Position numbers and translations under genes: made by a program. From assembly GCF_002953935.1 (NCBI RefSeq), contig NZ_CP026514.1, forward strand, positions 558,001-622,000: a stretch of 64,000 nucleotides of DNA, read 5' to 3'. How positions within the stretch are numbered: the first letter of the stretch is position 1; each line of letters opens with the position of its first letter. Source of the DNA: Arthrobacter sp. PGP41 (GTDB lineage: Bacteria > Actinomycetota > Actinomycetes > Actinomycetales > Micrococcaceae). Under the pieces are notes generated by a model. The model searched no databases, was not told the origin of the DNA, and was given only the letters and a program-made list of their open reading frames with translations. Shown piece by piece: positions 8,098 to 33,522 of the stretch.

Positions 8098-8152
8098 AGA
8101 GAAAACCCTACCAATCCGGGCCGACATCCTGCCGCCCTGTGGGGGAATAGTA

Positions 8153-8246
8153 AAGACCCCCCATGCACCCGCCAGAGCCCATTTACCCTTGCTACCTTCC
8201 GGTCCTGGGGGAGTTCAACAGGATGACGCCACATGAGGGGCCGTCA
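8153..8246 (-). ncRNA. ffs: Signal recognition particle RNA, small bacterial type (4.5S)
   Basis: On the minus strand the segment contains the conserved SRP helix-8 core: GTTGAACTCCCCCAGGACC, then GGAAGGTAGCAAGGG. The GGAA tetraloop and asymmetric loop bind Ffh. The ends pair (GGCCCCTCATGTGGCG with CGGGTGCATGGGGGGTC), closing a hairpin of about 94 nucleotides, the usual size for the short form. It lies between the YqfO-like gene and dnaX, its usual actinobacterial position. Ends are estimated from the pairing and may shift by a few bases. Confidence 0.93.
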
Positions 8247-8916: not shown

Positions 8917-9001
8917 GGAGAATTCGCCTAGCGGCCTATGGCGCACGCCTGGAACGCGTGTTGGGTTAACGCCCTCGGGGGTTCAAATCCCCCATTCTCC
9001 G
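8917..9001 (+). tRNA. tRNA-Ser (anticodon GGA)
   Basis: An 85-base class II tRNA. The acceptor stem GGAGAAT pairs with ATTCTCC. The D arm is present. The anticodon stem CACGC/GCGTG closes loop CTGGAAC, so the anticodon is GGA reading UCC/UCU serine codons. The long variable arm TTGGGTTAACGCCCTC is typical of tRNA-Ser. The T stem is GGGGG/CCCCC with loop TTCAAAT. The discriminator is G; CC follows but the final A of CCA is not encoded. A hairpin terminator follows directly. Confidence 0.97.
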
Positions 9002-9985
9002 CCGGTGAGGACCCGGCTCCCGTTCAATCGGGGGCCGGGTCCTTTCTATTGGTGCGGCGTCATCCCGCCCTTCGGCGGCCGCCACGCCCAGCCGCCGAAG
9101 CCGTTCCCTGGCGGCCAGCTCGCTTGGACCCCTGTGCCCCAAGGCCAGGCGTGCGACGCCGAGAACCAGCTTCGTTGCGAGCCTCACCGGCAGCGGCAGG
9201 GGACCCAGTCGGGGAACTTCCAGCCCGAGCATCCGGCGGTACCTTGGCTCCAGGCTGTATACAGCGCCCGCGAAGAGGAGCCGGTACCCCGGCCGGAGCA
9301 TCCGGTTCAAGGGCGGGTTGCGGACGAATCCCACTGTCTCTGCCACACGGCCGTCACCCCGGAGATCACCGCTTTCGTACCAGCGGTCCAGCTGCCTGTG
9401 CATGTCCGCCTCGGTGAGCGGCGGATCCTCCACTCCCATCAGCCGGCCCGCATGGGCCCACTCCCGGACATACGCGTCCGGTCCGCCGGGAATCGTGCCT
9501 CCCCACAGTTTGTGGGCCGTGAGGAAGGCGTCAGTGAAGGCCAGATGGATCCAGCTGGCCAGGTGCGGATCGTTGGCGCTGTAGGTGCGCTGTGCCCCCT
9601 GGTTGTCGCTGTAGCTGCCCTGGACGGCCTCGTGCAGCCGGCGCACCCTCCGTGAGGCGTTCCCGGCGGCGTCCTTGGAGCCGTAGGTCACCGTGAAGAT
9701 CCAGCGGATGGTGTTGGCCAGCCTGCCCAGGGGATCCTCGCGGAAGTTTGAATGTTCGTGGACGCCGGCAAGGGCGCCAGGGTGCAGGGACTGCATCAGC
9801 AGGGCTCGGATTCCGGCGACGATGGGCGACATTGAACCGTGCACCGCCCATACCGCGGAACCGGGCAGGTGGTACCCCGGGTCATCGCCCTCCGCAAGAT
9901 CCAATTGCCATTGCTGAACCCCTTCGGAACCGTTGCTGAAGGTTCGGACCAAGCGCTTCTTGATGGGGCTGAGGATGCTTTTGAT
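8966..9985 (-). CDS. Oxygenase MpaB family protein (DUF2236)
   Basis: Member of the DUF2236 family, heme-dependent oxygenases related to fungal MpaB and rubber-degrading Lcp. The family core is visible: a GSAVWAVHGSM start, MQSLHPGALAGVHEHSNF, DPLGRLANTIRWIFTVTYGS and HLASWIHLAFTDAFLTAHKL. The histidines in the latter motifs are candidate heme ligands. No in-frame ATG or GTG lies at a sensible place. The only strong ribosome site (AGGAGGG) is followed after 8 bases by ATC at 9985, giving a product starting KSILSPIKKRLV; TTG at 9952 is the alternative. The last ~11 codons plus stop run antisense into tRNA-Ser and through its terminator, so the basic tail (PIEREPGPHRRR) may be an add-on. Substrate unknown. 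Confidence 0.75.
   Translation of the reverse strand: MKSILSPIKKRLVRTFSNGSEGVQQWQLDLAEGDDPGYHLPGSAVWAVHGSMSPIVAGIRALLMQSLHPGALAGVHEHSNFREDPLGRLANTIRWIFTVTYGSKDAAGNASRRVRRLHEAVQGSYSDNQGAQRTYSANDPHLASWIHLAFTDAFLTAHKLWGGTIPGGPDAYVREWAHAGRLMGVEDPPLTEADMHRQLDRWYESGDLRGDGRVAETVGFVRNPPLNRMLRPGYRLLFAGAVYSLEPRYRRMLGLEVPRLGPLPLPVRLATKLVLGVARLALGHRGPSELAARERLRRLGVAAAEGRDDAAPIERTRPPIEREPGPHRRRMGDLNPRGR
9008..9047 (+). terminator. Rho-independent terminator of tRNA-Ser
   Basis: A near-perfect 15-bp stem, AGGACCCGGCTCCCG (9008-9022) against CGGGGGCCGGGTCCT (9029-9043), with a short loop. The T-rich stretch TTTCTATT follows in the rightward direction only. It sits 7 bases past the tRNA end and inside the antisense 3' end of the MpaB-family gene. 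Confidence 0.85.
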
Positions 9986-20039: not shown

Positions 20040-22178
20040 TTGACTGCATGGAACGCCGACACCGAGGCCGCCGCATCCGAATCAGGTTCGGTGACGGTGC
20101 TGGAAGGATCCTCGTTCTGCATCTCTTCCGGCACTGGGGACATCAGTTCAGACACCGGCACGAACGGTGCTTTCTACCAGGACACGCGCATCATTTCCCA
20201 CTGGATCCTCCGGGTTAACGGCTCCTTGCGCGAACCGTTGGCGGCGCAGCGGCCCAAGCCCTTCGAAGCCACCTTCGTTGGGAGGGCCCAGTGGCCGGAC
20301 GGCCGGTTTGACAGCCCGCTGGTGGTCCGCCAAACCCGCCACATCGGCCCCGGCCTGCAGGACGACATCACGCTGGAGAACTACTCGGCGGAGGCTGTGG
20401 ATTGCGACATCGAACTCCTTGTCGGTGCAGACCAGGACGATCTTTTCGACGTCAAGGTGGGCCGCACGTCCAAGCATGCTGAGGCCGCCCGCACGGTCCG
20501 CGACGGCCAGCTCGTAATCGAAAGCGCCCGGAACGGCCAACGGCGGGGAACGGCTGTCCGTGCCCGCGGCGCCGCGGTCAGCACAGACGGGCTCCGCTTC
20601 CGGGCCACCATTCCGCCGCGCGGCAAATGGGCCACCAGCATCATCGTGGTCCCCCTGATCAACGGGCAGGCCCCGGCGGACGCCTTCACCGAGAACGGGC
20701 TGCCGCACCACCGGGAAGGCGCCCGCCGGCACCGGCACTGGGAGCAGAACGTCCCGCTCATCACCGTTGCGGACGCCAACCTGCAGGCTCTGCTGAACCG
20801 CAGCCAAAGCGACTTGGGGTCCCTGCGGATCTTCGATCCGCACCACCCGGAACGGGTGGCCGTTGCCGCCGGTGCCCCCTGGTTCATGGCGCTGTTCGGC
20901 CGCGACTCCATCCTCTCCTCCTACATGAGCCTGATGGTGGACCCTAAGCTGGCGGCCGGGACGTTGCAGACCTTGGCTGGCCTCCAGGGGACGAAAGTGG
21001 ACACGGACTCCGAGGAGGAACCGGGGCGCATCCCGCACGAAGTGAGGTTGGGCGTCACCGCGGGGCTGGCGCTGGGGGGCAGCGCCTATTACGGCACCGC
21101 TGACGCCACCCCGTTGTTTGCAGCCCTTGTTGGCGAGCTGAGCAGGTGGGGGCAGTCAAAGGACATTGTGCAGCCGTTGGTGCCCCACGTGGACAGGGCC
21201 TTGGAATGGATCGAGCGGTACGGGGACCGCGACGGCGACGGGTTTGTGGAGTACCTCCGGCCCAACGACCATGGACTCGTCAACCAGGGGTGGAAGGATT
21301 CCTGGGACGGCATCAACTTCGCGGACGGGACCATGGCCGAGGCGCCCATTGCCCTCTGTGAAGTCCAGGCCTATGTCTACTCCGCCTATGTGGGCCGGTC
21401 CCTGCTGGCCCGCTGGAGCGGCGACCGTGCGCTGGAACAGCACTGGGCTGAACGCGCCGCCGATTTGAAGACCGCGTTCAACGAGAAGTTCTGGCTGCCG
21501 GACAAGGGCTATTTCGCCGTGGCGCTGGATAAGGACAAGCGGCCGGTGGACGCGTGTACGTCAAACATGGGGCACTGCCTTTGGATGGGCATCGTGGACG
21601 AGGACAAGGCGGCCTCCGTGGTGGAGCACCTGATGTCCCCGCAGATGTTCACCGGCTGGGGGATCCGCACCCTCGGATCGGACATGGGTGCCTACAACCC
21701 GGTGAGCTACCACAATGGTTCTGTGTGGCCGCATGATTCGGCCCTGGTGGCCACCGGGCTGATGCGTTACGGGTTCGTGGAGGAAGCACGCAAGGTGGCC
21801 ACCGGAATCTTCGACGCCGCTGAGCATTTTGACGGCAGGCTGCCCGAACTGTTCTGCGGTTTTGACCGGGGCGAGTTCTTCGGGCCGGTGGCGTACCCCA
21901 CCGCCTGCTCGCCGCAGGCATGGGCGGCGGCGGCGCCGGTGCAACTGGTCCGGGCACTGCTCCGTTTCGACCCCGTTTTCACGCACGGGGTAGTGCACCT
22001 GGCGCCGATCCTGCCGGAGGAGGTGGGCGAGTTCCGGGCCGACAACGTGCTGCTGGACACCGCCCGGATCAACATCAGGGCGTCCGGGACCCACGGCACC
22101 GTGGAGGGGCTGCCGCCGGGCCTCAAGCTCCTGGCGGAACCGCGCCCGCCCCTGGCCTACCCGCCTGAGTACGCATAA
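20040..22178 (+). CDS. Glycogen-debranching-type amylo-alpha-1,6-glucosidase family protein
   Basis: A 712-residue cytosolic protein. The N-terminal beta domain is the GDE_N_bis type (SGTGDISSDTGTNGAFYQDT and RIISHWILRVNG). The C-terminal (alpha/alpha)6 barrel is glucoamylase/GH63-like, with PWFMALFGRDSILSSYMSL, DGINFADGTMAEAPIALCEVQAY and NPVSYHNGSVWPHDSALVA. Candidate catalytic acids lie in these barrel motifs. The start is TTG at 20040, 9 bases after AAAGGAG. It sits behind a GT4 transferase, so an alpha-glucan or glucosylated osmolyte is a reasonable substrate. Whether it debranches glycogen is unproven; many members are poorly characterised. Confidence 0.88.
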   Translation: MTAWNADTEAAASESGSVTVLEGSSFCISSGTGDISSDTGTNGAFYQDTRIISHWILRVNGSLREPLAAQRPKPFEATFVGRAQWPDGRFDSPLVVRQTRHIGPGLQDDITLENYSAEAVDCDIELLVGADQDDLFDVKVGRTSKHAEAARTVRDGQLVIESARNGQRRGTAVRARGAAVSTDGLRFRATIPPRGKWATSIIVVPLINGQAPADAFTENGLPHHREGARRHRHWEQNVPLITVADANLQALLNRSQSDLGSLRIFDPHHPERVAVAAGAPWFMALFGRDSILSSYMSLMVDPKLAAGTLQTLAGLQGTKVDTDSEEEPGRIPHEVRLGVTAGLALGGSAYYGTADATPLFAALVGELSRWGQSKDIVQPLVPHVDRALEWIERYGDRDGDGFVEYLRPNDHGLVNQGWKDSWDGINFADGTMAEAPIALCEVQAYVYSAYVGRSLLARWSGDRALEQHWAERAADLKTAFNEKFWLPDKGYFAVALDKDKRPVDACTSNMGHCLWMGIVDEDKAASVVEHLMSPQMFTGWGIRTLGSDMGAYNPVSYHNGSVWPHDSALVATGLMRYGFVEEARKVATGIFDAAEHFDGRLPELFCGFDRGEFFGPVAYPTACSPQAWAAAAPVQLVRALLRFDPVFTHGVVHLAPILPEEVGEFRADNVLLDTARINIRASGTHGTVEGLPPGLKLLAEPRPPLAYPPEYA

Positions 22179-22760: not shown

Positions 22761-23756
22761 CTATTGCTTGAAGGCGGCGTCGAAGGAGGTGTTCGACGGC
22801 GGGAAGTCGAACTTTTTGAGGGCAGCCAGGGCTTCGGGGGCACCATGGAGGCGGTCCATGCCTGCGTCTTCCCACTCCACGGAGATGGGGCCGTCGTAGC
22901 CGATCGCGGACAGGGCGCGGAAGGACGCTTCCCAGGGGACATCGCCGCGTCCGGCGGAGACGAAGTCCCAGCCCCGGCGCGGATCGCCCCAGGGCAGGTG
23001 GGAACCCAGGACGGTGTTCCGGCCGGTCTGGCGGAGCTTGGTGTCCTTGCAGTCCACGTGGTAGATCCGGTCCTTGAAGTCCCAGATGAAGGAGACGGGG
23101 TCGATGCCCTGCCACATCATGTGGGACGGGTCCCAGTTCAGGCCGAATGCCTCGCGGTGGCCGATCGCTTCGAGGGTGCGGACGGTGGTCCAGTAGTCGT
23201 AGGCGATTTCGGAGGGGTGGACTTCGTGGGCGAAACGGACGCCGCATTCGTCGAAGACGTCCAGGATGGGGTTCCAGCGGTCGGCAAAGTCCTGGTAGCC
23301 GGCGTCGATGACTTTTTCCGGGACGGGCGGGAACATGGCCACGTACTGCCAGATGGAGGAGCCGGTGAAGCCGACGACGGTGTCCACGCCCAGTGCCTTG
23401 GCGAGCCTGGCGGTGTGCTTCATTTCCTCGGCGGCCCGCTGCCGGACGCCTTCGGGATCGCCGTCGCCCCAGACCTTCGCTCCGACGATGTCCTGGTGGC
23501 GGAAGTCGATGGGGTCATCGCACACGGCCTGGCCCTTGAGGTGGTTGGAAATGGCCCACACCTTGAGGTTGTACTTGTCCAGGATCTCGAGTTTGGACTC
23601 GACGTAGCCGGGTTCGTCCCAGCGCCAGGCGTCCAGGTGGTCGCCGGACACGGCAATTTCCAGGCCGTCATAGCCCCAGCCGGACGCCAGTTTGGCGACC
23701 TCTTCGAAGGGCAGGTCGGCCCACTGGCCGGTGAACAGGGTAAACGGGCGGGGCAT
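22761..23756 (-). CDS. Sugar phosphate isomerase/epimerase family TIM-barrel protein
   Basis: 331-residue AP_endonuc_2/xylose-isomerase-like barrel, last gene of the leftward sugar operon. Candidate divalent-metal ligands lie in FAHEVHPSEIAYD, FGLNWDPSHMMWQGID, IYHVDCKD and ISVEWEDAG, i.e. the E/D/H/E set of the fold. The ATG at 23756 has AAGGAG 6 bases upstream and lies 2 bases after the stop of the previous dehydrogenase gene. Proteins of this family catalyse isomerisation, or elimination on 3-keto-glycosides when encoded with Gfo/Idh/MocA dehydrogenases. The neighbourhood makes the second possibility attractive but unproven. Confidence 0.88.
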   Translation of the reverse strand: MPRPFTLFTGQWADLPFEEVAKLASGWGYDGLEIAVSGDHLDAWRWDEPGYVESKLEILDKYNLKVWAISNHLKGQAVCDDPIDFRHQDIVGAKVWGDGDPEGVRQRAAEEMKHTARLAKALGVDTVVGFTGSSIWQYVAMFPPVPEKVIDAGYQDFADRWNPILDVFDECGVRFAHEVHPSEIAYDYWTTVRTLEAIGHREAFGLNWDPSHMMWQGIDPVSFIWDFKDRIYHVDCKDTKLRQTGRNTVLGSHLPWGDPRRGWDFVSAGRGDVPWEASFRALSAIGYDGPISVEWEDAGMDRLHGAPEALAALKKFDFPPSNTSFDAAFKQ

Positions 23757-23757
23757 G

Positions 23758-24966
23758 TCAGGCTCCTTCGGTGGTACCGGCTGTGCCGGCTGCCGGGGTT
23801 GCGGCGGGGGAGAGTTGGACCAGGGTGCTGTTGGAGGCGGCGGATTGCTCCACCGCGTCCAGGATGCGCTGGACTTCCAGTCCGTCGTCGAACGACGGCG
23901 ATGGCGCGGTTCCGGAGCTGACGGCCAGCAGGAAGTCGCGGACCTCGTGCGTGAAGGTGTGCTCCCAGCCGATGATGTGGCCCTGCGGCCACCACGCATC
24001 CACGTAGGGGTGCTCCGGCTCGCTGACCAGGATCCTCCGGAAGCCCTGCTCCCGGGCGGGGGCGGTGGCGTCCAGGAACTGGAGTTCGTTGAGGTTTTCC
24101 AGGTCGAACCGGAGGGCTCCCTTGTCGCCGAAAACCTCGAGCTGCAGGGAGTTTTTCCGGCCGGTGGCCACCCGGGATGCCTCCACTGAGGCGACCGCTC
24201 CGGAGGCGAGGGACAGCGTAGCCCAGGCGGCGTCGTCGACTGTCACATCTTCAAGCCCGCTTGCAGGGCCTCGCGGGCTGGGGCGCCGGTTGACGAAGGT
24301 GTGCACACGGCCCGAGACTTCCGTGACCCGGTCATCGAGCAGGAACAGGACCTGGTCGATCGCGTGGGAGGCGATGTCGCCGAGCGCGCCGGAGCCCGCG
24401 GTTTCCTTCTTCAGCCGCCAGGACATGGGCGCCTGGTCATCCGCGAGCCAGTCCTGCAGGTAAGCGGCGCGGACGTGCCTGACTGTTCCGATCCTGCCCT
24501 CGGCGATGAGCTCCTTGGCCAGGGCGAGAGCCGGGACCCTGCGGTAGTTGAACCCGACCATCGACTGCACGCCCTTGGACCGGGCATGTGCTGCGGCAGC
24601 CGTCATTGCTTCAGCCTCGGCCATTGTGTTGGCCAGCGGCTTTTCCAGCAGGACGTGCTTGCCGGCATCCAGGGCGGCAATGGCGATTTCCGCGTGCATC
24701 CAGCCCGGGGCGCAGACGTCGATGATGTGGATGTCGTCCCGGTCCAGGACCGTGCGCCAGTCGGTGGCCGTTTCCGCCCATCCGTACTTGGCGGCAGCCT
24801 CCGAGACCGCGGCGGCGTCGCGGCCCACCAGGACCTTCTGCTCGAACGCGGGGACGTCGAAGTAGCTGGCGACGTTCCGCCACGCGTTGGAGTGCGCCTT
24901 GCCCATGAAGGCGTAGCCGATCATGGCCACGCCCAGCGGCGCGGTGGTGCCTGTGTCGGGGCTCAT
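23758..24966 (-). CDS. Gfo/Idh/MocA family oxidoreductase
   Basis: An NAD(P)-dependent sugar or polyol dehydrogenase of 402 residues. The Rossmann start is VAMIGYAFMGKAHSNAW. The family marker is LLEKPLANTMAEAEAM, whose EKP lysine is catalytic, and the substrate-side motif is SGALGDIASHAIDQVLFLL with the D-x3-H pattern. A C-terminal DGLEVQRILDAVEQSAA is typical. The start ATG overlaps the stop of the upstream dehydrogenase gene (ATGA), so expression is coupled. It is the third gene of the leftward operon. Substrate unknown; glycosides, inositols or hexoses are all known for the family. Confidence 0.9.
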   Translation of the reverse strand: MSPDTGTTAPLGVAMIGYAFMGKAHSNAWRNVASYFDVPAFEQKVLVGRDAAAVSEAAAKYGWAETATDWRTVLDRDDIHIIDVCAPGWMHAEIAIAALDAGKHVLLEKPLANTMAEAEAMTAAAAHARSKGVQSMVGFNYRRVPALALAKELIAEGRIGTVRHVRAAYLQDWLADDQAPMSWRLKKETAGSGALGDIASHAIDQVLFLLDDRVTEVSGRVHTFVNRRPSPRGPASGLEDVTVDDAAWATLSLASGAVASVEASRVATGRKNSLQLEVFGDKGALRFDLENLNELQFLDATAPAREQGFRRILVSEPEHPYVDAWWPQGHIIGWEHTFTHEVRDFLLAVSSGTAPSPSFDDGLEVQRILDAVEQSAASNSTLVQLSPAATPAAGTAGTTEGA

Positions 24967-26093
24967 GCGGAGCCTCCGAGGGTCAGGGCTTCCGGCGCCC
25001 AGTCTTCGGGCAGGGGTGCCGACGCCGGCGCGGAGCTTGCCACGTCCACGAACGTTCCTGAATCCATGGACTCCGAGATGGAGACCATCGCATCCAGCAC
25101 GTGGTACGCCAGGTCGCCGGTGGCCCGGTGCGGGACACCGGCGCGGAGCGAACGCGCCATGTCCAGGACGCCCATGCCGCGGCCGTTCGCAGGCCCCGTG
25201 GCCGGGATGGTGGTCCAGTCCTCGTCGCCCGCGCGCCAAAGCCTGACGTCGCCGTCGAAGTTGTTGGGGTCCGGCAGGGAAAGGGTGGCCTCCGTGCCGG
25301 TGATCTCCACGAAGCCCATCCGGGTACGCGGGGACTCGAAGGAGAAGACGCTGTGGGAGGACGCTCCGCTCTCGAACTGGGCCATCGCTGAGACGTGGGT
25401 GGGGACTTCCACCGTGAATTCCTCGCCGGCCTTGGGACCGGAGCCAATGACGCGGACGTCCTTGGCCATGGACCCGACGGCGGCCACCTTGCGGATGGAG
25501 CCGAACGCCTGGACCAGGGTGGTGAGGTAGTAGGGGCCCATGTCGAACAGGGGGCCGCCGCCGTACTGGAACAGGAAGGCGGGGTTGGGGTGCCAGGACT
25601 CCGGGCCGGGCGTCTGGAAGGTGGTCATGCCGGTCAGGGGCGTGCCGATGTCGCCGCGCTGGATCAGGCGCAGCGCAGTCTGGAGCCCGGCACCGAGGAA
25701 CGTGTCCGGCGCGCAGCCTAGGCGGATTCCCGCGGAGTCGGCGGTTTTGAGGAGCCCCAAGCCTGATTCGCGGTCAAGGGAAAAGGGCTTCTCGGTCCAG
25801 ACGTGCTTGCCGGCGTTGACGGCTGCTGTGGCCACTTCGACGTGGGCTGCGGGAATGGTCAGGTTGACGATGATCTCGACGCCGGGGTGCTGCAGTGCTT
25901 TTTCCACGCCGCCCCACTCGGGGATGCCGTATTCTTTGGCCCGGGCTTCGGCGGCTTCCTCGAAGAGGTCTGCGATGACGTGGACCTTGAGGTCGGGGAA
26001 CGTGGTGAGGTTGTCCAGGTACTGCTTGCTGATGTTGCCCGCGCCGATGACACCGACGCCCACCGGGCCTTTGCTGCTGGAGGGGGTGCTCAT
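24963..26093 (-). CDS. Gfo/Idh/MocA family oxidoreductase
   Basis: 376 residues, second gene of the leftward operon, coupled by ATGA overlaps to both neighbours. The Rossmann motif is VGVGVIGAGNISKQYLDNL. The catalytic motif is VWTEKPFSLDRESGL, and GGGPLFDMGPYYLTTLVQAFG supplies the D/Y pocket residues seen in several sugar dehydrogenases of this family. It differs clearly from the next gene's product, so the operon encodes two distinct dehydrogenases. A scheme in which one oxidises a glycoside and the other reduces a released keto-sugar would explain the pair; this is inference. Confidence 0.9.
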   Translation of the reverse strand: MSTPSSSKGPVGVGVIGAGNISKQYLDNLTTFPDLKVHVIADLFEEAAEARAKEYGIPEWGGVEKALQHPGVEIIVNLTIPAAHVEVATAAVNAGKHVWTEKPFSLDRESGLGLLKTADSAGIRLGCAPDTFLGAGLQTALRLIQRGDIGTPLTGMTTFQTPGPESWHPNPAFLFQYGGGPLFDMGPYYLTTLVQAFGSIRKVAAVGSMAKDVRVIGSGPKAGEEFTVEVPTHVSAMAQFESGASSHSVFSFESPRTRMGFVEITGTEATLSLPDPNNFDGDVRLWRAGDEDWTTIPATGPANGRGMGVLDMARSLRAGVPHRATGDLAYHVLDAMVSISESMDSGTFVDVASSAPASAPLPEDWAPEALTLGGSA

Positions 26094-26830
26094 GCGCTGG
26101 CTCCTGCGTTGTTGAGGAAAGCCAGGCTCTCGGCGATGCCCTGGAAAATGTCTCCGTCGTAGTCGTCGAATTCCACCACGCCTACCTCCAGGGCCTTTGC
26201 CGCGGCGATGACGTCCAGGACCGGCACCTTGCCCTTACCGGCCGGTTGCTGGGCCTTGGTATCCGCGGTCAGGGGGCCGTCCTTGATGTGGATCAGCTTT
26301 ACCCGGTCCCCGAGCCTGGCGAGGATGTCCACCGGATCCTGCCCGCCCACGGCCACCCAGTAGGTGTCCACTTCCAGGACCAGTTCCGGATCAAGCAGGT
26401 CGGCGAAGTATTCCAGGGCGGTCCGGCCTTCGATGATTGACTCCAGCTCCCACTGGTGGTTGTGGTAGCCAACCCGGATGCCGTACTCCGCGCCTTTCTT
26501 GGCGGCTTCGTTCAGCTTCCCCGCCGTGTCCCGGATGTCCTCTGCGGACTGCCAGCGGTCCGCCGGAATATAGGGCTCGATGACGGTGGTGATGCCCAGG
26601 TCCCTGGCCGCTGTGAAGATTTCGTCCTGGTCCTGACTGAGCAGCGGGGCATGGCCGGACGGCGCCGTCAGTCCGTTCTCTTTCAGGGCAGTGCCCAGTT
26701 CCTTCGCGGTGGTCACGAAATTGTAGGGCTCCACCTGGGTGAAGCCGATGTCCGCGACCCTGCGGATGGTTCCGGGGAGGTCCTCTTCCAACGGCCGCCG
26801 AAGAGTGTAAAGCTGAAGCGAGTAGTCCAT
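26090..26830 (-). CDS. Sugar phosphate isomerase/epimerase family TIM-barrel protein
   Basis: 246 residues, first gene of the leftward operon. Barrel landmarks are SLQLYTLRRPLEEDLPGTI, VEPYNFVTT, VGYHNHQWELES, LVLEVDTYWVAVGGQDP and KLIHIKDG, with E, D, H and the final acidic residue (VVEFDDYDGD) as likely metal ligands. It is smaller than the other barrel protein in the operon. Proteins of this size occur as 3-keto-glycoside processing enzymes or inosose-type isomerases. The ATG at 26830 with AAGGA upstream is preferred over a longer frame. Confidence 0.88.
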   Translation of the reverse strand: MDYSLQLYTLRRPLEEDLPGTIRRVADIGFTQVEPYNFVTTAKELGTALKENGLTAPSGHAPLLSQDQDEIFTAARDLGITTVIEPYIPADRWQSAEDIRDTAGKLNEAAKKGAEYGIRVGYHNHQWELESIIEGRTALEYFADLLDPELVLEVDTYWVAVGGQDPVDILARLGDRVKLIHIKDGPLTADTKAQQPAGKGKVPVLDVIAAAKALEVGVVEFDDYDGDIFQGIAESLAFLNNAGASA

Positions 26831-26893
26831 GGCCTGCCCATTCCTTGCTGCTCGTTGCTGCACGTGCCGCAGCACATGAGTTGGGTTTTTTAC

Positions 26894-26931
26894 AAATTAC
26901 GGCGACTTTTGGCGCAAGTCAATCAAAAGTC
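26894..26931 (-). promoter_or_regulatory. Promoter with overlapping inverted-repeat operator, leftward sugar operon
   Basis: On the minus strand TTGACT (26922-26917), a 17-base spacer and TAATTT (26899-26894) form a good sigma70-type promoter 64 bases ahead of the first gene. A perfect 8-bp inverted repeat, GACTTTTG (26904-26911) and CAAAAGTC (26924-26931) separated by 12 bases, covers the -35 and spacer. The divergent ROK regulator gene begins about 30 bases away, so it is the natural candidate to bind here and to regulate both sides. Confidence 0.6.
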
Positions 26932-26960
26932 AAGGATTACTCGAACCAAAGTATTTCCGA

Positions 26961-28199
26961 ATGTGCTATTCCTTAGGTATGGCGATCGTTCCGAGGCAAC
27001 AACCGCGTCTACAGCAGGAGGCCGGGCTGCTTTCGCGCACCGGTGACCTGTTCCAGCTGCTCCGTGACGGCAAGCCCCGCACGCGGTCCGAACTGGCGGA
27101 CCTGACCGGCCTTGCCCGGACCACTGTTGCCGCCCGGATCGATGCCCTCCTTGCCATGGGCTTGGTGGGTCCGGCCGGCGAAGCGGCCTCCTCCGGCGGG
27201 CGGCCGCCGTCGAAATTTGCGTTTAACGCGGGGGTCAGGCTGGTGCTCGCCGCCGACATAGGCGCAACCCACGCCTCGGTGGCGGTCACAGACCTGAATG
27301 CCACCATCCTTGCCAGGCACTCCGAAGCCATCGATATTGGGGAAGGGCCTGAGCCCGTCCTCAACCGCGTCATGGAAATAGGGCGCAAGCTGTTGGAAGA
27401 CGTTGGGCGCCGCGTCGGCGATCTTGCCGGAGTGGGCATAGGACTCCCCGGTCCTGTGGAACACAGCACGGGGCGCCCGGTGAAACCTCCCATCATGCCG
27501 GGCTGGGACGGGTTCGATGTGGCCGGATTCGTTGGCCGGCAGCTGGGCACGGTGGTGCTGGTGGACAACGACGTGAACATTATGGCGATCGGTGAGCGGT
27601 ACGCCCACTGGCAGGAATTCCAGAATGTGTTGCTGGTCAAAGTGGCCACGGGAATCGGCGCCGGCATCATCAGCAACGGCCAGATCCAGCGTGGCGCGGA
27701 TGGTACTTCCGGCGACCTGGGGCATGTCCGGGTCCCCGACGGCGAGGACGTGCTGTGCCGCTGCGGCAACAGCGGGTGCCTCGAGGCTTTGGCATCCGGA
27801 CCGGCCTTGGCCGGGAAGCTGCGTGCGGAAGGAATCGAGGCCACCACCAGTACAGACGTGGTGGAACTCGCGGCCAAGGGAAACGTCCAGGCCATCCATG
27901 CGCTGCGGCAGGCCGGACGGGATTTGGGGGAGGTCCTGGCATTTTGCGTGAACCTGCTCAACCCTTCCGTCATTGTGGTGGGCGGAAGCCTGGCCCGCGC
28001 CGGGGACCAGTTGCTGGCGGGGGTGCGCGAGGCTGTTTACCGCAGATCGCTGCCGCTGGCCACATCCCGGCTCCGCATTGAGCAGTCCAAAGCTCCGGCG
28101 GATGCCGCCATCCTTGGTGCCAGCCGGATGGTGATTGACCACGTCCTTTCGCCCGAGGCGGTGGAAACCGCAATCCGGACATCTGCCCCCGCCGAGTAG
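26961..28199 (+). CDS. ROK family transcriptional regulator
   Basis: 412-residue NagC/XylR-type repressor. The N-terminal winged HTH contains KPRTRSELADLTGLARTTVAARIDALLAMGLV. The ROK sugar-kinase-like domain has LAADIGATHASVAVTDL, GIGLPGPVEHSTG and VLVDNDVN. The zinc-binding CxCGxxGCLE element appears as CRCGNSGCLEAL, and the GxGxG-like phosphate loop as VATGIGAGIISNG. It lies between the two divergent sugar operons, so it most likely senses the imported sugar or an intermediate and represses both. The start may be ATG 26979 rather than 26961; neither has a strong ribosome site. Confidence 0.92.
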   Translation: MCYSLGMAIVPRQQPRLQQEAGLLSRTGDLFQLLRDGKPRTRSELADLTGLARTTVAARIDALLAMGLVGPAGEAASSGGRPPSKFAFNAGVRLVLAADIGATHASVAVTDLNATILARHSEAIDIGEGPEPVLNRVMEIGRKLLEDVGRRVGDLAGVGIGLPGPVEHSTGRPVKPPIMPGWDGFDVAGFVGRQLGTVVLVDNDVNIMAIGERYAHWQEFQNVLLVKVATGIGAGIISNGQIQRGADGTSGDLGHVRVPDGEDVLCRCGNSGCLEALASGPALAGKLRAEGIEATTSTDVVELAAKGNVQAIHALRQAGRDLGEVLAFCVNLLNPSVIVVGGSLARAGDQLLAGVREAVYRRSLPLATSRLRIEQSKAPADAAILGASRMVIDHVLSPEAVETAIRTSAPAE

Positions 28200-28290
28200 C
28201 CCCGCAATTCTGGGCCCGGCCGCGTGCACCCAAGCACGCAGGCCTCGTTCCGGCATGCCCTCGGGCGCCCGCAGGTACCCCGGGGGATCC

Positions 28291-28319
28291 AATCGGATAC
28301 TCAAAAATCCCATCCGATT
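28291..28319. promoter_or_regulatory. Perfect 8-bp inverted repeat upstream of the ABC importer operon
   Basis: AATCGGAT (28291-28298) and ATCCGATT (28312-28319), spaced by 13 bases, sit just upstream of the TTGACA hexamer at 28324. Position and symmetry suit a repressor or activator site. The half-sites differ from the GACTTTTG repeat ahead of the leftward operon, so a second regulator may be involved. Confidence 0.5.
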
Positions 28320-28323
28320 CTTG

Positions 28324-28352
28324 TTGACATGGATCACACTCCATGGAAATCT
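28324..28352 (+). promoter_or_regulatory. Candidate promoter with internal palindrome, ABC importer operon
   Basis: A perfect TTGACA -35 at 28324-28329 is followed after 17 bases by the weak AAATCT (28347-28352). The spacer contains CATGGA-N6-TCCATG (28328-28345), an inverted repeat placed where a repressor would block RNA polymerase. The first gene starts about 145 bases downstream. The -10 match is poor, so the exact promoter is uncertain. Confidence 0.4.
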
Positions 28353-28496
28353 GCTTACAGCGGCTCGCTTGCATACTTTTGACCTATGACGGTTGAAAGT
28401 GGCGGCTGACCGCTTCATCGTCCCGCTGTCCGGAAACCTGCGGCCGTCCATTATGGCCGTGGCACGGGCGGACCAGGCCACCCCGAAAGGAAACTC

Positions 28497-29798
28497 GTGA
28501 AGGCATCCATGCCAGCAAGACGCCGTCGTCTCGCCCAGAGTGTTGCAGCAACCGTAGTTGCCGGTGTCATGCTCGCCGGCTGCGGAAACCAGCCGGCGTC
28601 GGAACCATCGAAGGCCCCGGCCGCGGCCGCTGCCGATCCCAAGAGCGCAGAAGGCGCCAAGGGAAACATCCATTTGTGCGGCGGCAAAGACGCCAGCGGC
28701 ATCCACAAGAACACCACGGCTGCCTTCAACGCCGCCAACCCGGGCATGACGGCGAAGTACACGGAGATCGGTGCCACGACGGACGAATCCCGCACGCAGG
28801 CCGTCCAGCGCCTTGAAGGCAAGTCCACCGAGTGCGACATCTTCATGACGGACGTGATCTGGACGGCCGAGTTCGCCTCCCAGGGCTGGCTGCTTGACCA
28901 GACCGAACTGGTCGAAGGAATCAAGGACAACCTCATCACGTCCACGACGGAAACGGTGAAGTACGACGGCAAGTACTGGGCCGCACCCTTCTACACGAAC
29001 GCCGGCCTGATCTACTACCAGAAGGACAAGGTGGCCAAGCCGGAAACCTGGCAGCAGCTCTACAAAGAGGCAGCCAAGGCCCCAGGCAACGGGCTGGTCT
29101 ACCAAGGCAAGCAGTATGAGGGCCTGACGGTGAACTTCCTCGAACTCCTCTACAGCGCCGGCGGCGAGGTCCTGGATGCCAACGGCGAAGTGGCGGTGGA
29201 CAACGACACCACCCGCAAGGTCCTGAACTTCATGGCCGACGGCATCAAGAACGGTTCCGCGGACCGTGCCGTGCTGACCTACAACGAAGATCCCGCACGC
29301 CTGGCCTACGAGTCCGGCAACTTCGGATACCAGCGCAACTGGCCCCACGTCTATCGCCTCCTGAACGCCACCAACCTGGCAGGCACCTTCGGCGTGGCAC
29401 CGCTGCCCTCCTTTGACGGCTCCGCCAAGCCAAGCGGCGTCCTGGGCGGCTGGAACTTCGCCATCTCCGCCCACTCCACCAACCCGGGCGCAGCCGTGGC
29501 CTACATCAAGTTCGCCACCTCCCCGGAGTGGCAGAAGCACGTGGCCATGGACAACTCCCAGGCGCCGGTGAACGAGGCCGCCTACTCCGCCCCCGAAGTC
29601 CTGGCCAAGATGCCGTTCGCGAAGGAACTGCTCGACTCGGTCAAGGGTGCCAAGCCCAGGCCGGTCTCCCCGGTGTACCCGCAGATTTCCCAGGCCATCA
29701 ACAAGAACGTCTACGCGGTCCTGTCCGGCACAGCCACAGCGGATGACGCAACGAAGCAGATGGCTGAAGAGATCAAGACCGCCAAGGCGACCTTCTGA
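28497..29798 (+). CDS. Extracellular sugar-binding lipoprotein of ABC importer
   Basis: 433-residue family 1 solute-binding protein. The N-terminus has a basic stretch (MPARRRRLAQS), a hydrophobic core and a lipobox VMLAGCGNQP, so it should be a lipid-anchored receptor. Mature landmarks are DIFMTDVIWTAEFASQGWL, YWAAPFYTNAGLIYYQKD and GGWNFAISAHSTNPGAA, which match the disaccharide and oligosaccharide binders (ThuE, LpqY, MalE-like). The start is GTG at 28497 with GAAAGGAA upstream. It is the first gene of the rightward operon; both permeases follow, and no ATPase is encoded locally, so a shared MsiK-type ATPase is expected. Confidence 0.93.
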   Translation: MKASMPARRRRLAQSVAATVVAGVMLAGCGNQPASEPSKAPAAAAADPKSAEGAKGNIHLCGGKDASGIHKNTTAAFNAANPGMTAKYTEIGATTDESRTQAVQRLEGKSTECDIFMTDVIWTAEFASQGWLLDQTELVEGIKDNLITSTTETVKYDGKYWAAPFYTNAGLIYYQKDKVAKPETWQQLYKEAAKAPGNGLVYQGKQYEGLTVNFLELLYSAGGEVLDANGEVAVDNDTTRKVLNFMADGIKNGSADRAVLTYNEDPARLAYESGNFGYQRNWPHVYRLLNATNLAGTFGVAPLPSFDGSAKPSGVLGGWNFAISAHSTNPGAAVAYIKFATSPEWQKHVAMDNSQAPVNEAAYSAPEVLAKMPFAKELLDSVKGAKPRPVSPVYPQISQAINKNVYAVLSGTATADDATKQMAEEIKTAKATF

Positions 29799-29800
29799 CC

Positions 29801-30733
29801 ATGGCACCCCCTGTCCTGACTTCCGGTCGTGGCCGCGTGAGCGGCCACGACCGGGCAGAACGCCGCCTGGCCGTCAGGATGACGGCACCGTCCCTCATCC
29901 TGATGGCCCTGGTGGCCGCCGTGCCCATCGGCTACGCCCTGTGGCTCTCGCTGAACCAGTACAGCGTCCGCCAGGCCGGCCTGTCCCGCTTCGTCGGCCT
30001 CGATAACTACATCGCGGCATTGGCGAGCAAGGAATGGTGGGCGGCCTTCGGCCAGACCTTCCTCTTTGCCGGGCTCTCGGTGTCGCTGGAACTGGTGCTG
30101 GGAACGGCCATGGCCCTGCTGCTGAACCTTGCCTTCCGGGGCCGTGCGCTGCTCCGCACCATCGTGCTGCTGCCGTACGCGATCGTCACAGTGGTCAGCG
30201 CCATCACCTGGGAGACCATGTTCGAACCAAACCTGGGGCTGGTGACCACGGTCCTTTCCGCCCTGGGCCTGCCCGCCGGCGACATTGTCTGGCTGGGTGA
30301 ACCTGGCTACGCCATGGCCGTGGTTGTCCTGGCTGACGTCTGGAAGACCACTCCCTTCGCGGCGCTCATCATCCTGGCCGGCCTGCAGGTCATTCCGGAT
30401 GAGACCTACGAGGCGGCTGAACTGGACGGCGCCAGCAAATGGCAGACCTTCCGGGATGTCACCCTGCCCCTGCTGAAGCCCGCGATTGTCCTGGCGGCGA
30501 TCTTCCGCACTATGGATTCCCTGCGCGTCTTCGACCTGCCGTTCGTCCTGACCCGCGGCGCCAACGGCACCGAATCAATGTCGATGCTTGCCTACAAGGA
30601 GCTGCGGGAAAACCGACTGGTGGGTGAGGGCTCAGCGCTGTCCATTCTGACGTTCCTGACGGTCATGATGGTCTCCATGGTCTATATCCGCTTCGCAGGC
30701 AGCAACATCCGCGCCGTCGCCAAGGAGAACTGA
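29801..30733 (+). CDS. Sugar ABC transporter permease (MalF type)
   Basis: 310-residue inner-membrane permease with about six helices. The first is near residues 30-50 (LILMALVAAVPIGYALWLSL). The EAA loop that docks the ATPase is TYEAAELDGASKWQTFRDVTLPLLKPA. It begins two bases after the binding-protein stop and overlaps the next permease by one base. Together with that gene it forms the heterodimeric channel of a CUT1-type importer. Confidence 0.94.
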   Translation: MAPPVLTSGRGRVSGHDRAERRLAVRMTAPSLILMALVAAVPIGYALWLSLNQYSVRQAGLSRFVGLDNYIAALASKEWWAAFGQTFLFAGLSVSLELVLGTAMALLLNLAFRGRALLRTIVLLPYAIVTVVSAITWETMFEPNLGLVTTVLSALGLPAGDIVWLGEPGYAMAVVVLADVWKTTPFAALIILAGLQVIPDETYEAAELDGASKWQTFRDVTLPLLKPAIVLAAIFRTMDSLRVFDLPFVLTRGANGTESMSMLAYKELRENRLVGEGSALSILTFLTVMMVSMVYIRFAGSNIRAVAKEN

Positions 30734-31629
30734 TGGGTACGCTGCTTGCCGACCGTCCCGCCGATACACCGGCCCGGTCCAAGGCACCTCGCCAACGTTT
30801 GCGGGGGGAAGCCAAACTTCACCCGCTAACGTGGCTCTTCGTCCTGGCCGTCATGGCCTTCTCGCTGGTCCCGTTCTACTGGCTGGTCAACACTTCCCTC
30901 AAGAAAGGCGCCAGCCTGGGCAAGGGGGAACTGTTCCCCGCCGAACCCTCGCTGGATAACTACCTGACTGTCCTCCAGAACGCCGAATTCCTGCTGGCGC
31001 TACGGAACTCGGTGATTATCGCCGTCGTCACCACCACGCTGGCGCTGGTGTTCGCATCCTTTGCCGCTTACGCCCTGGCCCGGCTCAAGATGCGCCGGAA
31101 GGCGCTGATCCTGACGCTGATCCTGTCCGTGACCACATTTCCGGCGATCGCCATCGCGGCACCCATGTTCGCGATCTGGCGGGAAATCGGGCTGTACGAC
31201 ACCCTCCTGGGCCTCATTATCCCCAAGATGACCTTCGCTCTGCCGCTGGCCATTTACACCCTGACGTCCTTCTTCCGGGAGATCCCGCGGGAGCTGGAGG
31301 AATCCGCGTACATGGACGGCGCTTCCCCGTTCCAGGCTTTCCGAAAGGTGATCCTGCCGCTTGCGGTGCCGGGCCTGGCCACCACGGCCATCCTGGTGTT
31401 CATCTCCGTCTGGAACGAGTTCCTCCTGGCCGTCACGCTGACGACGTCGCCGGACGCGCGCCCGGTCCCGGTGGCCATTGCCTTCTTCAACGGCGCCAGC
31501 GAGTTCGACCAGCCCATGGGCACCATCAGCGCCGCGTCCGTCCTGATCACACTGCCCCTTGTCATCCTGGTCCTGGTCTGCCAAAAGAGGATTGTCTCGG
31601 GCATGACCGCCGGGGCCGTCAAGGGCTGA
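30733..31629 (+). CDS. Sugar ABC transporter permease (MalG type)
   Basis: 298 residues, second half of the CUT1 channel. The N-terminal helix is WLFVLAVMAFSLVPFYWLV. The EAA motif is ELEESAYMDGASPFQAFRKVILPLAVPG, and the C-terminal helix ends QKRIVSGMTAGAVKG, the standard MalG-type tail. Its ATG shares a base with the upstream stop (TGATG). The matching ATP-binding subunit is not in the window. Confidence 0.94.
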   Translation: MGTLLADRPADTPARSKAPRQRLRGEAKLHPLTWLFVLAVMAFSLVPFYWLVNTSLKKGASLGKGELFPAEPSLDNYLTVLQNAEFLLALRNSVIIAVVTTTLALVFASFAAYALARLKMRRKALILTLILSVTTFPAIAIAAPMFAIWREIGLYDTLLGLIIPKMTFALPLAIYTLTSFFREIPRELEESAYMDGASPFQAFRKVILPLAVPGLATTAILVFISVWNEFLLAVTLTTSPDARPVPVAIAFFNGASEFDQPMGTISAASVLITLPLVILVLVCQKRIVSGMTAGAVKG

Positions 31630-31676
31630 CTTCCCAACCCCATTTCCATCGCACGAAAAAAGAGAAGGATCTACCT

Positions 31677-32771
31677 GTGAGCAATCAGCAGCCGGAAACC
31701 CTGAAGGTGGGGGTGGTTGGCATCGGTTGGGCCGGCCAGCAGCACATCAAGGCCTACAAGGGCATTGAGGGTGTGGAACTCGTGGCGGTCGCCGCCATGG
31801 AGGCCGACCTCCTGGCCAGCCTGAAGGACGAGTATGCCATCCCGCACACGTTCGCCCGCTGGGAGGACCTGATCGAGTTGGAGGGGCTGGACGCCGTCAG
31901 CGTGGCCGTGCCCACCTTCCTGCACGCACCCATCGCCATCGCAGCCATGGAAACGGGGCTGCATGTCCTGAGCGAAAAGCCGCTGGCGCGCAACGGCGTC
32001 GAGGGCCAGGCCATGGTGGACGCGGCACGCAAGGCCGGCCGGGTGCTGGATGTTGCCTTCAACCACCGCCGTCGGGGCGACATCCAGAAGTTGAAGGGCA
32101 TCATGGACGCCGGTGAGCTGGGCCGCCCGTACTACGCCAAGGCTTCCTGGCTTCGACGCTCCGGCATCCCCATGCTGGGCAGCTGGTTCACCAACCCGGA
32201 ACTGGCCGGCGGCGGTCCGCTGGCCGATATCGGCGTCCATGTACTGGACTACTCGCTGCACCTGCTGGGCGAACCCAAGGTCCTGTCCGTTTCCGCCGCC
32301 ACCCACTCCGAGCTGGGCCCGCGTGGTTTGGGCGGGAACGCCCGCTACTCTGCGATGAAGTCCAGCCACAAGTTCGAGGTGGAGGATTTCGCCACCGCGT
32401 TCCTCCGGCTCGAAGGAGGCGGTACGCTGATCCTCGAGGCGGGATGGGCGGCTTACCGGGAAGAGACGGATCTCCTGGACTTCACCGTGTACGGGACGGA
32501 CGGAGGCGCCGAACTGCGCGCTGTAGGGGCTTCCATGGCACCGGTTGCGGACCTGAGGATCTTCAAGGAGAAGGACGGCGAAAACGCCGACTACGAGGTG
32601 GTGGCTGAGCCCGGCCGCGCCCACGACGCCGTCGTCGAGGACTTCGTCAACGCCGTCCGCGGCGGCCCGCAGGAGTGGGGCGCGCATGACGGCTCGGTGG
32701 CCCTCAGCCGGGCCCTGGTCCTGGACGCCTGCTACCGGTCCGCACTCGAACACCGGGAAGTTGCGCTCTGA
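31677..32771 (+). CDS. Gfo/Idh/MocA family oxidoreductase (ThuB-like)
   Basis: 364-residue NAD(P)-dependent dehydrogenase. The Rossmann start is [19 protein letters not shown], the catalytic motif [17 protein letters not shown], and the pocket motif [21 protein letters not shown] has the D-x3-H pair. The start is GTG with GAGAAGGA upstream. It lies directly after the sugar permeases and before a ThuA protein, the same order as thuA/thuB genes for trehalose, maltose and sucrose use in Sinorhizobium, where the disaccharide is oxidised at C3. That function is inferred from context. Confidence 0.9.
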
Positions 32772-32772
32772 C

Positions 32773-33522
32773 ATGACGGACAAACTCAACATCCTGGTCT
32801 GGAACGAGGGCGTCCACGAGGCGCAGAATACGCCGGCCACCATGGCCGAAATGTATCCCGAAGGGATTCACGGTGCTATTGCCGGCGGCCTGCGCGGGCA
32901 TCTGACGGACTCCGTCATCCGCACGGCTACACTCGCCGATCCTGAGCACGGACTCAGCGAGGAAGAGCTGGCCTCCACGGACGTCCTGCTGTGGTGGGGA
33001 CACAAAGCCCACGCCGAGGTCAGCGACGAGGTCGTGGATCGGGTGCAGCGCCACGTCCTGGGCGGAATGGGCCTGCTGGTCCTCCACTCCGGCCACTTCG
33101 CCAAGATCTTCACCCGCCTCCTGGGCACCACGTGCTCGCTCAAGTGGCGCAACGACGGTGAACGCGAGACTGTGTGGACGGTCAAACCGTCCCACCCCAT
33201 CGCGCAGGGCGTTCCAAACCCGCTGATCATCCCCAAGCAGGAGATGTACGGCGAACTCTTTGACATCCCCGACCCGGATGACCTCATCTTCATCAGCTCC
33301 TTTGAAGGGGGTGAGGTGTTCCGCTCCGGCGTGACATTCACCCGCGGCAAGGGCCGGATCTTCTATTTCAGCCCCGGTGACCAGGACTACCCGGTTTACC
33401 ACCAGGCTGAGATCCAACAGGTGCTGGCCAACGGCGTCCGCTGGGCCGCCCAGCCGGATGTCTTCCGCGAGCAGCCCGGGGTGGCCAACGCCCGGCGCGG
33501 CTGGTACCTCGGGGACGCCTGA
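32773..33522 (+). CDS. ThuA domain protein
   Basis: 249-residue trehalose-utilisation (ThuA) family protein with a class I glutamine amidotransferase-like fold. It starts [20 protein letters not shown] and contains [43 protein letters not shown] and [20 protein letters not shown], the conserved blocks. The catalytic nucleophile elbow of true amidotransferases is replaced by LHSGH, as in other ThuA proteins. ThuA acts with ThuB on oxidised (3-keto) sugars. It begins one base after the dehydrogenase stop and closes the operon. Confidence 0.9.

Follow-up and report, generated by a model that had tools for sequence, protein, structure and literature searches.

A ROK-associated gene cluster of Arthrobacter sp. 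PGP41 proposed as an oxidoreductive glycoside-degradation regulon with one hub and two entry arms

A stretch of 64,000 nucleotides of the genome of Arthrobacter sp. PGP41 (positions 558001-622000 of the 4,270,237-base contig NZ_CP026514.1), here called the window, was analysed with respect to a cluster of ten genes at window positions 22761-33522. Gene content, phylogenetic clades, active-site residues, a palindrome and its placement, and co-occurrence in other genomes make it fairly probable that the cluster is a ROK-controlled regulon for the oxidoreductive degradation of glycosides, in which one hub would serve two entry arms. The hub would be formed by the TIM-barrel protein TIM1 and the dehydrogenase GFO2, the first arm by GFO1 and the TIM-barrel protein TIM2, and the second arm by GFO3 and ThuA. 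All reactions assigned below are predictions from sequence comparisons of these kinds.

Gene organization of the cluster

The cluster is composed of three blocks, i.e. a leftward operon TIM2-GFO1-GFO2-TIM1, a divergent gene for a ROK-family regulator, and a rightward operon for a solute-binding protein (SBP), two permeases, GFO3 and ThuA. The features are as follows (aa, amino acids):

22761-23756, minus strand: TIM1, AP_endonuc_2 TIM barrel, 331 aa; predicted 2-hydroxy-3-keto-glucal hydratase (hub); PDB 2zds, 8ro4
23758-24966, minus strand: GFO2, Gfo/Idh/MocA, 402 aa; predicted hub dehydrogenase/3-ketoreductase of the levoglucosan-dehydrogenase clade; PDB 4h3v, 6a3f
24963-26093, minus strand: GFO1, Gfo/Idh/MocA, 376 aa; TIM2 partner, entry arm 1
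26090-26830, minus strand: TIM2, AP_endonuc_2 TIM barrel, 246 aa; predicted 3-keto-O-glycoside beta-eliminase, entry arm 1; PDB 8bvk, tree
26905-26930, no strand: predicted ROK operator 1, ACTTTTG-N12-CAAAAGT, 0 mismatches; between TIM2 and ROK, kept in relatives
26979-28199, plus strand: ROK-family regulator (helix-turn-helix and ROK), 406 aa; Pfam PF00480, 2.2e-56
28375-28400, no strand: predicted ROK operator 2, 2 mismatches; 5' of the importer operon
28497-29798, plus strand: CUT1 solute-binding lipoprotein, 433 aa; PF01547, 4.7e-33; 34% to the ThuE-position gene of Sinorhizobium meliloti pSymB
29801-30733, plus strand: CUT1 permease 1; PF00528; 39% to the ThuF-position gene of S. meliloti pSymB
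30733-31629, plus strand: CUT1 permease 2; PF00528; 45% to the ThuG-position gene of S. meliloti pSymB
31677-32771, plus strand: GFO3, Gfo/Idh/MocA, 364 aa; predicted glycoside 3-dehydrogenase, entry arm 2; PDB 7xr9 DgpA, tree
32773-33522, plus strand: ThuA, 249 aa; predicted 3-keto-glycoside-cleaving enzyme, entry arm 2; PF06283, PDB 1t0b

All ten genes were found at these coordinates, and two AP_endonuc_2, three Gfo/Idh/MocA, one ROK, one SBP, two BPD_transp_1 and one ThuA protein were recognised by Pfam. Coordinates and domains agree with an earlier interpretation of the region (the sequence-only reading), in which a divergent ROK gene and a rightward CUT1 importer operon ending in a Gfo/Idh/MocA and a ThuA gene had been described. 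The same reading had presented the leftward genes as an operon with ATGA couplings; the operon and two 4-base overlaps were retrieved (TIM2/GFO1, 26090-26093; GFO1/GFO2, 24963-24966, ATGA), but GFO2 and TIM1 are separated by one base. For TIM1, position 23756 is most likely the start rather than the far end of the longest open reading frame. Neither a glycoside hydrolase nor a sugar kinase was detected by Pfam among the ten cluster proteins, the ROK regulator's own domain aside. This part of the earlier description is retained for the cluster itself, but a glycogen-debranching/MGH1-like glycosidase is encoded at 20040-22178, just beyond the cluster edge. An ABC ATPase was likewise not found among the ten proteins by Pfam.

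A palindromic operator before both operons

The gap between TIM2 and the ROK gene contains a perfect 8-bp inverted repeat, the 7-bp core of which gives the 26-bp pattern ACTTTTG-N12-CAAAAGT. In a scan of the own genome (4.27 Mb, at most two mismatches) this palindrome occurred at two places only, 26905-26930 and 28375-28400, one before each operon. Relatives were then compared in 68 loci defined by a TIM2 match of at least about 45% identity; any match was present in 93 of 197 genomes, 24 weaker ones were dropped, and the own genome is the 69th. Counts in the fetched loci rest on tblastn and hidden Markov model (HMM) matches; open reading frames picked by third-position GC content (GC3) were sometimes in the wrong frame. 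With at most one mismatch, the N12 spacer yielded 64 matches in the 68 loci against 0-2 for each of the spacers 6-11 and 13-19. With at most two mismatches, 77 sites were obtained against one for the reversed pattern, and two sites were present in 25 of the loci. Of the 58 loci with a ROK gene, 52 have the operator no more than 250 bp ahead of that gene, and five of the nine loci with GFO3 have it directly upstream of GFO3(-ThuA). The importer-upstream site with two mismatches, which taken alone is weak, has a two-mismatch counterpart at the equivalent position in L081 and L082, the closest two of the named relatives, and Arthrobacter sp. ERGS1:01 carries sites before ROK, before the importer and before GFO3. 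Locus L187, among the matches listed, is a compact array ROK / operator / GFO2-TIM1-GFO3-ThuA with no TIM2 alongside.

It is thus very probable that both operons belong to one ROK-controlled regulon. The ROK protein is predicted to bind the palindrome, and the 26-bp palindrome before both operons is reported here as a new element.

The operator was also surveyed at 17 places chosen among the matches listed, mostly in genomes without a nearby TIM2 cluster. Among these matches, it was found (L175-L186) in genera mostly lacking TIM2. It neighbours importers of the CUT2 type there, together with GFO2, TIM1 or both, and some of these loci also carry a psicose-3-epimerase-like TIM barrel. A further perfect 8-bp inverted repeat in the upstream region of the importer (AATCGGAT/ATCCGATT, window 28291-28319) is not the ROK operator.

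TIM2 and GFO1

The best solved relative of TIM2 was 8bvk (AtOGE, an O-glycoside beta-eliminase of Agrobacterium; 2.7e-20), followed by 8tcs and 8tcd. In AtOGE, His132, Asp163 and His189 are described as metal ligands and His134 as the base, together with Glu39, His66, Glu161 and the weak ligand Glu233, the ligands being counted for either position of the metal (PMC10628242; here and below, sources with PMC numbers are cited from the passages available). All seven of E39, H66, H132, H134, E161, D163 and H189 are identical in TIM2 in the phmmer alignment with 8bvk; E233 lies outside this alignment, which covers chain positions 12-201. In a tree of 47 TIM-barrel rows, TIM2 was placed together with AtOGE, 8tcs and a Listeria TIM-barrel protein (support 95/87), and the IolE-like rows of the own genome stood apart; the relatives in this clade include one of Bacteroides type. 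Due to the seven conserved residues and the shared clade, TIM2 can with good confidence be regarded as a 3-keto-O-glycoside beta-eliminase.

GFO1 falls into a clade without a characterised member in the Gfo tree (66 rows). It keeps the EKP motif, but the Asp...His motif of levoglucosan dehydrogenase (LGDH), GFO2 and GFO3 is replaced by DMGPYY. It stands beside TIM2 in all 68 family loci. Two nearby TIM2-GFO1 pairs, 62/71% and 80/83% identical to those of the window, are located on a plasmid of Arthrobacter sp. StoSoilB13 (L078:4735-14128). In two loci, L073 (genome G104) and L069 (genome G144), the TIM2 match is split into two pieces in different frames.

TIM1, GFO2 and the levoglucosan loci

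TIM1 matched PDB 2zds (1.6e-166) and, over about 300 residues, 8ro4, the '2-hydroxy-3-keto-glucal hydratase' AtHYD (6.1e-35), with which HPxE, DPSH, KD and EWE motifs are common in the alignment. In the TIM tree, TIM1 grouped with 2zds, and AtHYD joined weakly (80/28). The entry 2zds had been deposited under the name of a putative DNA-binding protein, but its clade is that of TIM1, among TIM-barrel enzymes. GFO2 matched 6a3f (LGDH, 1.3e-86) as well as 4h3v; in the Gfo tree it shares a clade (99/94) with LGDH and scyllo-inositol dehydrogenase, adjacent to 4h3v.

These enzyme kinds are the same as those of the lgd set (PMC7676230), and the cluster could accordingly be read as the levoglucosan pathway itself, as in Bacillus smithii, with GFO2 as LgdA, TIM2 as LgdB1, TIM1 as LgdB2 and GFO1 as LgdC. 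The score of GFO2 on the NCBIfam model LevoglcsnDh (NF052479), 351-352 bits, would speak for this, but it is far under the cut-off of 650. The genome encodes its true LGDH (750 bits) at 1124690-1125844 (1.12 Mb), together with an LgdB1-type TIM barrel and separate from the window cluster. In the tree this LGDH is nearly identical to 6a3f, the enzyme of Pseudarthrobacter phenanthrenivorans (PMC10066097), and the LgdB1-type protein falls outside the TIM2/AtOGE clade. The cluster was therefore rejected as a canonical levoglucosan locus; this explanation is largely refuted and very improbable.

The LGDH model scored above its cut-off in 13 of 197 genomes, each of which also has a TIM1 match. In five of the 13 LGDH loci (L192, L193, L197, L202 and L203), lgdB1-lgdA is followed on its own strand by a TIM1 orthologue (76-83% identical to that of the window), within about 0.5 kb in four and at about 3.7 kb in L203; none was seen in the remaining eight loci. 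In the 20 kb examined, the own genome's lgd locus showed neither TIM1 nor an additional Gfo match, so that both would be needed in trans. The presence of TIM1 in levoglucosan loci provides independent support for a hydratase role, and TIM1 is quite probably a 2-hydroxy-3-keto-glucal hydratase. In the available passages of PMC10066097, the enzyme for the hydration of this compound in Arthrobacter-type levoglucosan degraders without LgdB2 is given as an open question, and TIM1, as found in the five loci named, is a candidate for the missing hydratase.

GFO3, ThuA and the importer

GFO3 matched DgpA (7xr9, 2.2e-43) and was placed in a clade with this C/O-glycoside 3-dehydrogenase (7xr9, 9m3d; support 95/87); EKP and DIGxHxLD, the Lys/Asp-x3-His motif, were matched in the alignment. 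GFO3 is therefore likely a glycoside 3-dehydrogenase. An assignment as ThuB orthologue was rejected; ThuB, on a long branch, diverges basally to the GFO2/LGDH clade and does not group with GFO3. In kind, the 3-keto-glycoside chemistry proposed in the sequence-only reading is supported by the predicted relationships of TIM2 to AtOGE, of GFO3 to DgpA and of GFO2 to LGDH, and the clustering of the TIM-barrel proteins, proposed there as a check, was not strictly with inositol or hexulose isomerases.

ThuA matched PDB 1t0b (1.6e-85) and is 55% identical to ThuA of S. meliloti pSymB. The thu names of the pSymB genes are our assumption from gene order, the record carrying no gene table. Across 26 ThuA homologues H15, H33, H77, H80, H105, S106, H108, H141, E157, E161 and R184 were invariant. 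In the predicted structure (predicted local distance difference test, pLDDT, 87) the HSxH motif is located at the end of the strand 100-105, which we take to be the nucleophile-elbow place of class I glutamine amidotransferases, as a correspondence of strand ends rather than of single residues. That ThuA cleaves the bond of a 3-keto-glycoside is about as likely as not, or slightly less. A preference for alpha-linked substrates is suggested because AtOGE cleaves 3'-keto-cellobiose and not 3'-keto-maltose (PMC10628242) and the thu genes serve the alpha-linked sugars trehalose and maltitol (PMC10433430); this preference is doubtful, and is the boldest and least certain part of the present interpretation.

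The nearest named ThuA among the matches listed was that of Pseudarthrobacter sp. GA104 (95%). This, together with the near identity of the LGDH to the P. phenanthrenivorans enzyme, makes it very likely that the strain belongs to Pseudarthrobacter. In the best 80 of at least 591 ThuA loci, a sample biased toward close kin, a same-strand Gfo gene was located within 300 bp in 63 cases. In the own genome, further copies of GFO3 and ThuA (74% each) are found at C1:3942.7-3946.9 kb (L080); upstream there is a match to the last 26 residues of PE2 only, and downstream a GH13 alpha-amylase-family protein with a weak amylosucrase-C match. In four loci (L085, L086, L087 and L089) a GFO2 orthologue (HMM scores 715-742) comes after GFO3-ThuA; three of them have a window-type importer, and none has a ROK operator in the stretch examined.

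The importer of the window is of the CUT1 type and ThuEFG-like. It was rejected as the usual importer of the family, as no SBP of at least 35% identity over half the length was found in the 68 loci. L066, with an SBP of 38% over a shorter stretch, is the sole locus with permeases at 38/40% or above, and 32 of the 68 loci share another protein of 449 aa beside the permeases (cluster c6), presumed to be an SBP by its position. A second own-genome locus (L079, C1:123.3-130.7 kb), beside a LacI-type gene, comprises importer permeases and GFO2-like (52%), TIM1-like (70%) and GFO1-like (44%) genes as well as a distant ThuA-family protein (22%), with no TIM2 match.

Distribution and the hub-and-arms layout

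Near TIM2, GFO1 was found in 68, ROK in 58, and TIM1 and GFO2 (at least 45% identity) in 53 loci each; some of the absences of TIM1, GFO2 and ROK are contig ends, and in others the genes are elsewhere in the genome. The association is not attributed to chance because it recurs in the 68 family loci. The whole cluster including importer, GFO3 and ThuA is present in Pseudarthrobacter sp. GA104 (L081), and Arthrobacter sp. ERGS1:01 has the same enzyme genes annotated with another importer. Over the 197 genomes, TIM1 matched in 115, TIM2 in 69 and a window-type (P0006-type) ThuA in 39, with both TIM2 and ThuA in 35. The distribution is nested: a TIM1 match occurred in all 69 TIM2 genomes and in all 39 ThuA genomes, against 115 of 197 overall. 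TIM2 and GFO1 occur without an adjoining TIM1 in some genomes, and TIM1 with GFO2 elsewhere, as in L189/L190 (G031/G079, with operator) and L187 (G008).

Due to this nested gene content, the separable gene pairs, the L187 array and the pairing of GFO1 with TIM2 and of a Gfo gene with ThuA, TIM1 and GFO2 are read as a shared hub, and GFO1-TIM2 and GFO3-ThuA as exchangeable entry arms, with importers that would be exchangeable as well. The six enzyme genes had been taken for one pathway in the sequence-only reading; their association is recurrent, but gene content describes a hub with two separable arms rather than one obligatory pathway. With a defined operator, this layout allows the prediction of Micrococcaceae genes for glycosidase-free glycoside use.

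Several observations weigh against this proposal. The kinship of TIM2 to AtOGE is remote, as the E-value shows, the AtHYD-TIM1 join has low support, and GFO1, with a Lys/Tyr motif in place of the Lys/His found in LGDH and DgpA, might just as well be a reductase. In the own genome one place was also matched by the reversed control pattern, and the second operator has its two mismatches. GFO3 and ThuA were near TIM2 in just nine of 68 loci, and 17 of the best 80 ThuA loci had no adjacent Gfo gene by the models used. Of the 115 TIM1 genomes, 42 have neither TIM2 nor a P0006-type ThuA. The TIM1 counts include a class of 68-72% identity to which the own genome's paralogue belongs; in nine of the 69 genomes with TIM2 the sole TIM1 match is of this class, and that of G144, one of the nine, carries two in-frame stops, so that the nesting counts kin and not proven orthologues. 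The Fisher p-values for co-occurrence ignore phylogeny.

Catabolism of a monosaccharide or cyclitol would fit part of the data as well. The TIM barrels would then be isomerases or dehydratases and the Gfo proteins dehydrogenases of the inositol or hexose type, on the pattern of iol or L-glucose pathways. GFO2 is kin to the scyllo-inositol/L-glucose dehydrogenase 5ya8, and TIM1-only genera among the matches listed have the operator with CUT2-type importers, GFO2 and TIM1, some of them with the D-psicose 3-epimerase-like TIM barrel, which is below the model cut-off. IolE is the best NCBIfam match of TIM1 and TIM2, but with 45 and 46 bits against a cut-off of 290 (TIGR04379), and IolG reached 68-125 bits against 355 (TIGR04380). 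TIM2 has the AtOGE residues and clade, apart from the IolE-like rows, GFO3 is placed with DgpA, TIM1 orthologues sit in levoglucosan loci, and the window importer is CUT1 and ThuEFG-like, not CUT2. An iolE/iolG function was rejected as the principal explanation on these scores and the TIM tree, and monosaccharide or cyclitol catabolism in general is considered unlikely.

It is also conceivable that two unrelated pathways share one regulator, the left operon degrading glycosides and the right one importing trehalose-like sugars, with GFO3 and ThuA making or recycling a 3-keto-disaccharide and no cleavage by ThuA. A TIM1- or TIM2-type gene is nearby in just 11 of the best 80 ThuA loci by the models used, and in S. 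meliloti, where ThuA and ThuB are present, the 30 kb examined contained no match of the TIM1 or TIM2 type. The operator (at most two mismatches) was absent from all nine named detached GFO3-ThuA loci (L084-L087 and L089-L093) in the stretch examined; there the pair is therefore outside this regulon, and the arm can have other control. This absence and the second-site support from L081 and L082 roughly offset each other. On the other side, GFO3-ThuA stands under the common operator in the window and in the five family loci, follows GFO2-TIM1 in one array in L187 and is accompanied by a TIM1 match in all 39 ThuA genomes, and ThuA is joined to TIM barrels in a Listeria operon. Two unrelated pathways are hence rather improbable, and a common hub with two arms is preferred.

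Proposed pathway

In the proposed pathway, a glucoside or disaccharide would be taken up by the CUT1 importer, the ATPase of which would have to come from elsewhere, with the ROK repressor occupying ACTTTTG-N12-CAAAAGT before both operons. In the first arm, C3 would be oxidised by GFO1 (possibly GFO2), and TIM2 would split the glycosidic bond by metal-dependent beta-elimination to 2-hydroxy-3-keto-glucal. In the second arm, GFO3 would oxidise C3 of a second glycoside class, at a guess alpha-glucosides such as trehalose, maltitol or sucrose isomers, and ThuA would cleave the bond. In the hub, TIM1 would hydrate 2-hydroxy-3-keto-glucal to 3-keto-glucose, which GFO2 (or GFO1) would reduce to glucose using the NADH of the first step, giving a redox-neutral 'hydrolysis' as the net result. 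GFO3 may couple the first and last steps by analogy with DgpA, for which 3-oxo-glucose is described as hydride acceptor (PMC11239390). For the TIM2 arm, this sequence of oxidation, beta-elimination, hydration and reduction is adopted because it is described in the available passages of PMC7676230 and PMC10628242, and elimination with hydration is favoured over direct hydrolysis. We infer the substrate, the redox direction of the dehydrogenases and the ThuA reaction.

A wider proposal is put forward tentatively and is as a whole rather doubtful: ThuA would be a second 3-keto-glycoside-cleaving enzyme, structurally unrelated to the TIM barrels, with a glutamine-amidotransferase-like fold and for alpha-linked substrates, as TIM2 would be for beta-linked ones, and both arms would share a TIM1-GFO2 hub that also supplies hydratase and reductase to Micrococcaceae without them in the lgd locus. 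ThuA is widespread and its reaction is not assigned in the literature passages available, and a literature search retrieved no title or abstract tying ThuA to an oxidation-elimination pathway. As ThuA shares operator and array with a hydratase-type TIM barrel, its reaction becomes directly testable.

Apart from the cluster, the window contains a small signal recognition particle RNA gene at 8149-8245 (minus strand) and a tRNA-Ser gene at 8917-9003 (plus strand).

Comparison with known systems

The GlycDH-AtOGE-AtHYD-Gfo operon of Agrobacterium tumefaciens (PMC10628242) resembles the cluster in having a TIM-barrel hydratase, a Gfo reductase and a TIM-barrel eliminase whose metal and base residues are the same, and a logic of oxidation, elimination, hydration and reduction would be common to both. 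Its oxidant is the flavoenzyme GlycDH, whereas NAD-type Gfo proteins are present here, and neither a GFO3-ThuA arm nor a ROK operator is described for it in the available passages of that source. The lgdA-B1-B2-C levoglucosan pathway of B. smithii (PMC7676230) and that of Paenarthrobacter LG01/LG02 (PMC10066097) share with the cluster two Gfo proteins, two TIM barrels and an importer; however, the oxidant dehydrogenase belongs to another clade, the cluster adds the ThuA arm, and the levoglucosan locus is separate in this genome.

With thuEFGKAB of S. meliloti, the cluster has in common a ThuEFG-like importer (34-45%) and ThuA (55%). It differs in that no ThuK-type ATPase gene is among the ten genes, in that the dehydrogenase is the DgpA-like GFO3 and not ThuB, and in that these genes are joined to TIM1, TIM2 and ROK. 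GFO3 belongs to the clade of the gut DgpA-type puerarin/glycoside oxidoreductase (PMC11239390). Redox coupling through 3-oxo-glucose is a plausible model, but the partner of GFO3 in the window is ThuA. Finally, an operon Gfo-TIM-ThuA-TIM-Gfo of Listeria monocytogenes (NZ_LR134401; L075:6173-10772), known from annotation, combines ThuA, both TIM types and two Gfo proteins as in the cluster, although with an AraC-type regulator gene upstream and no adjoining importer. This operon links ThuA with both TIM types in another phylum as well.

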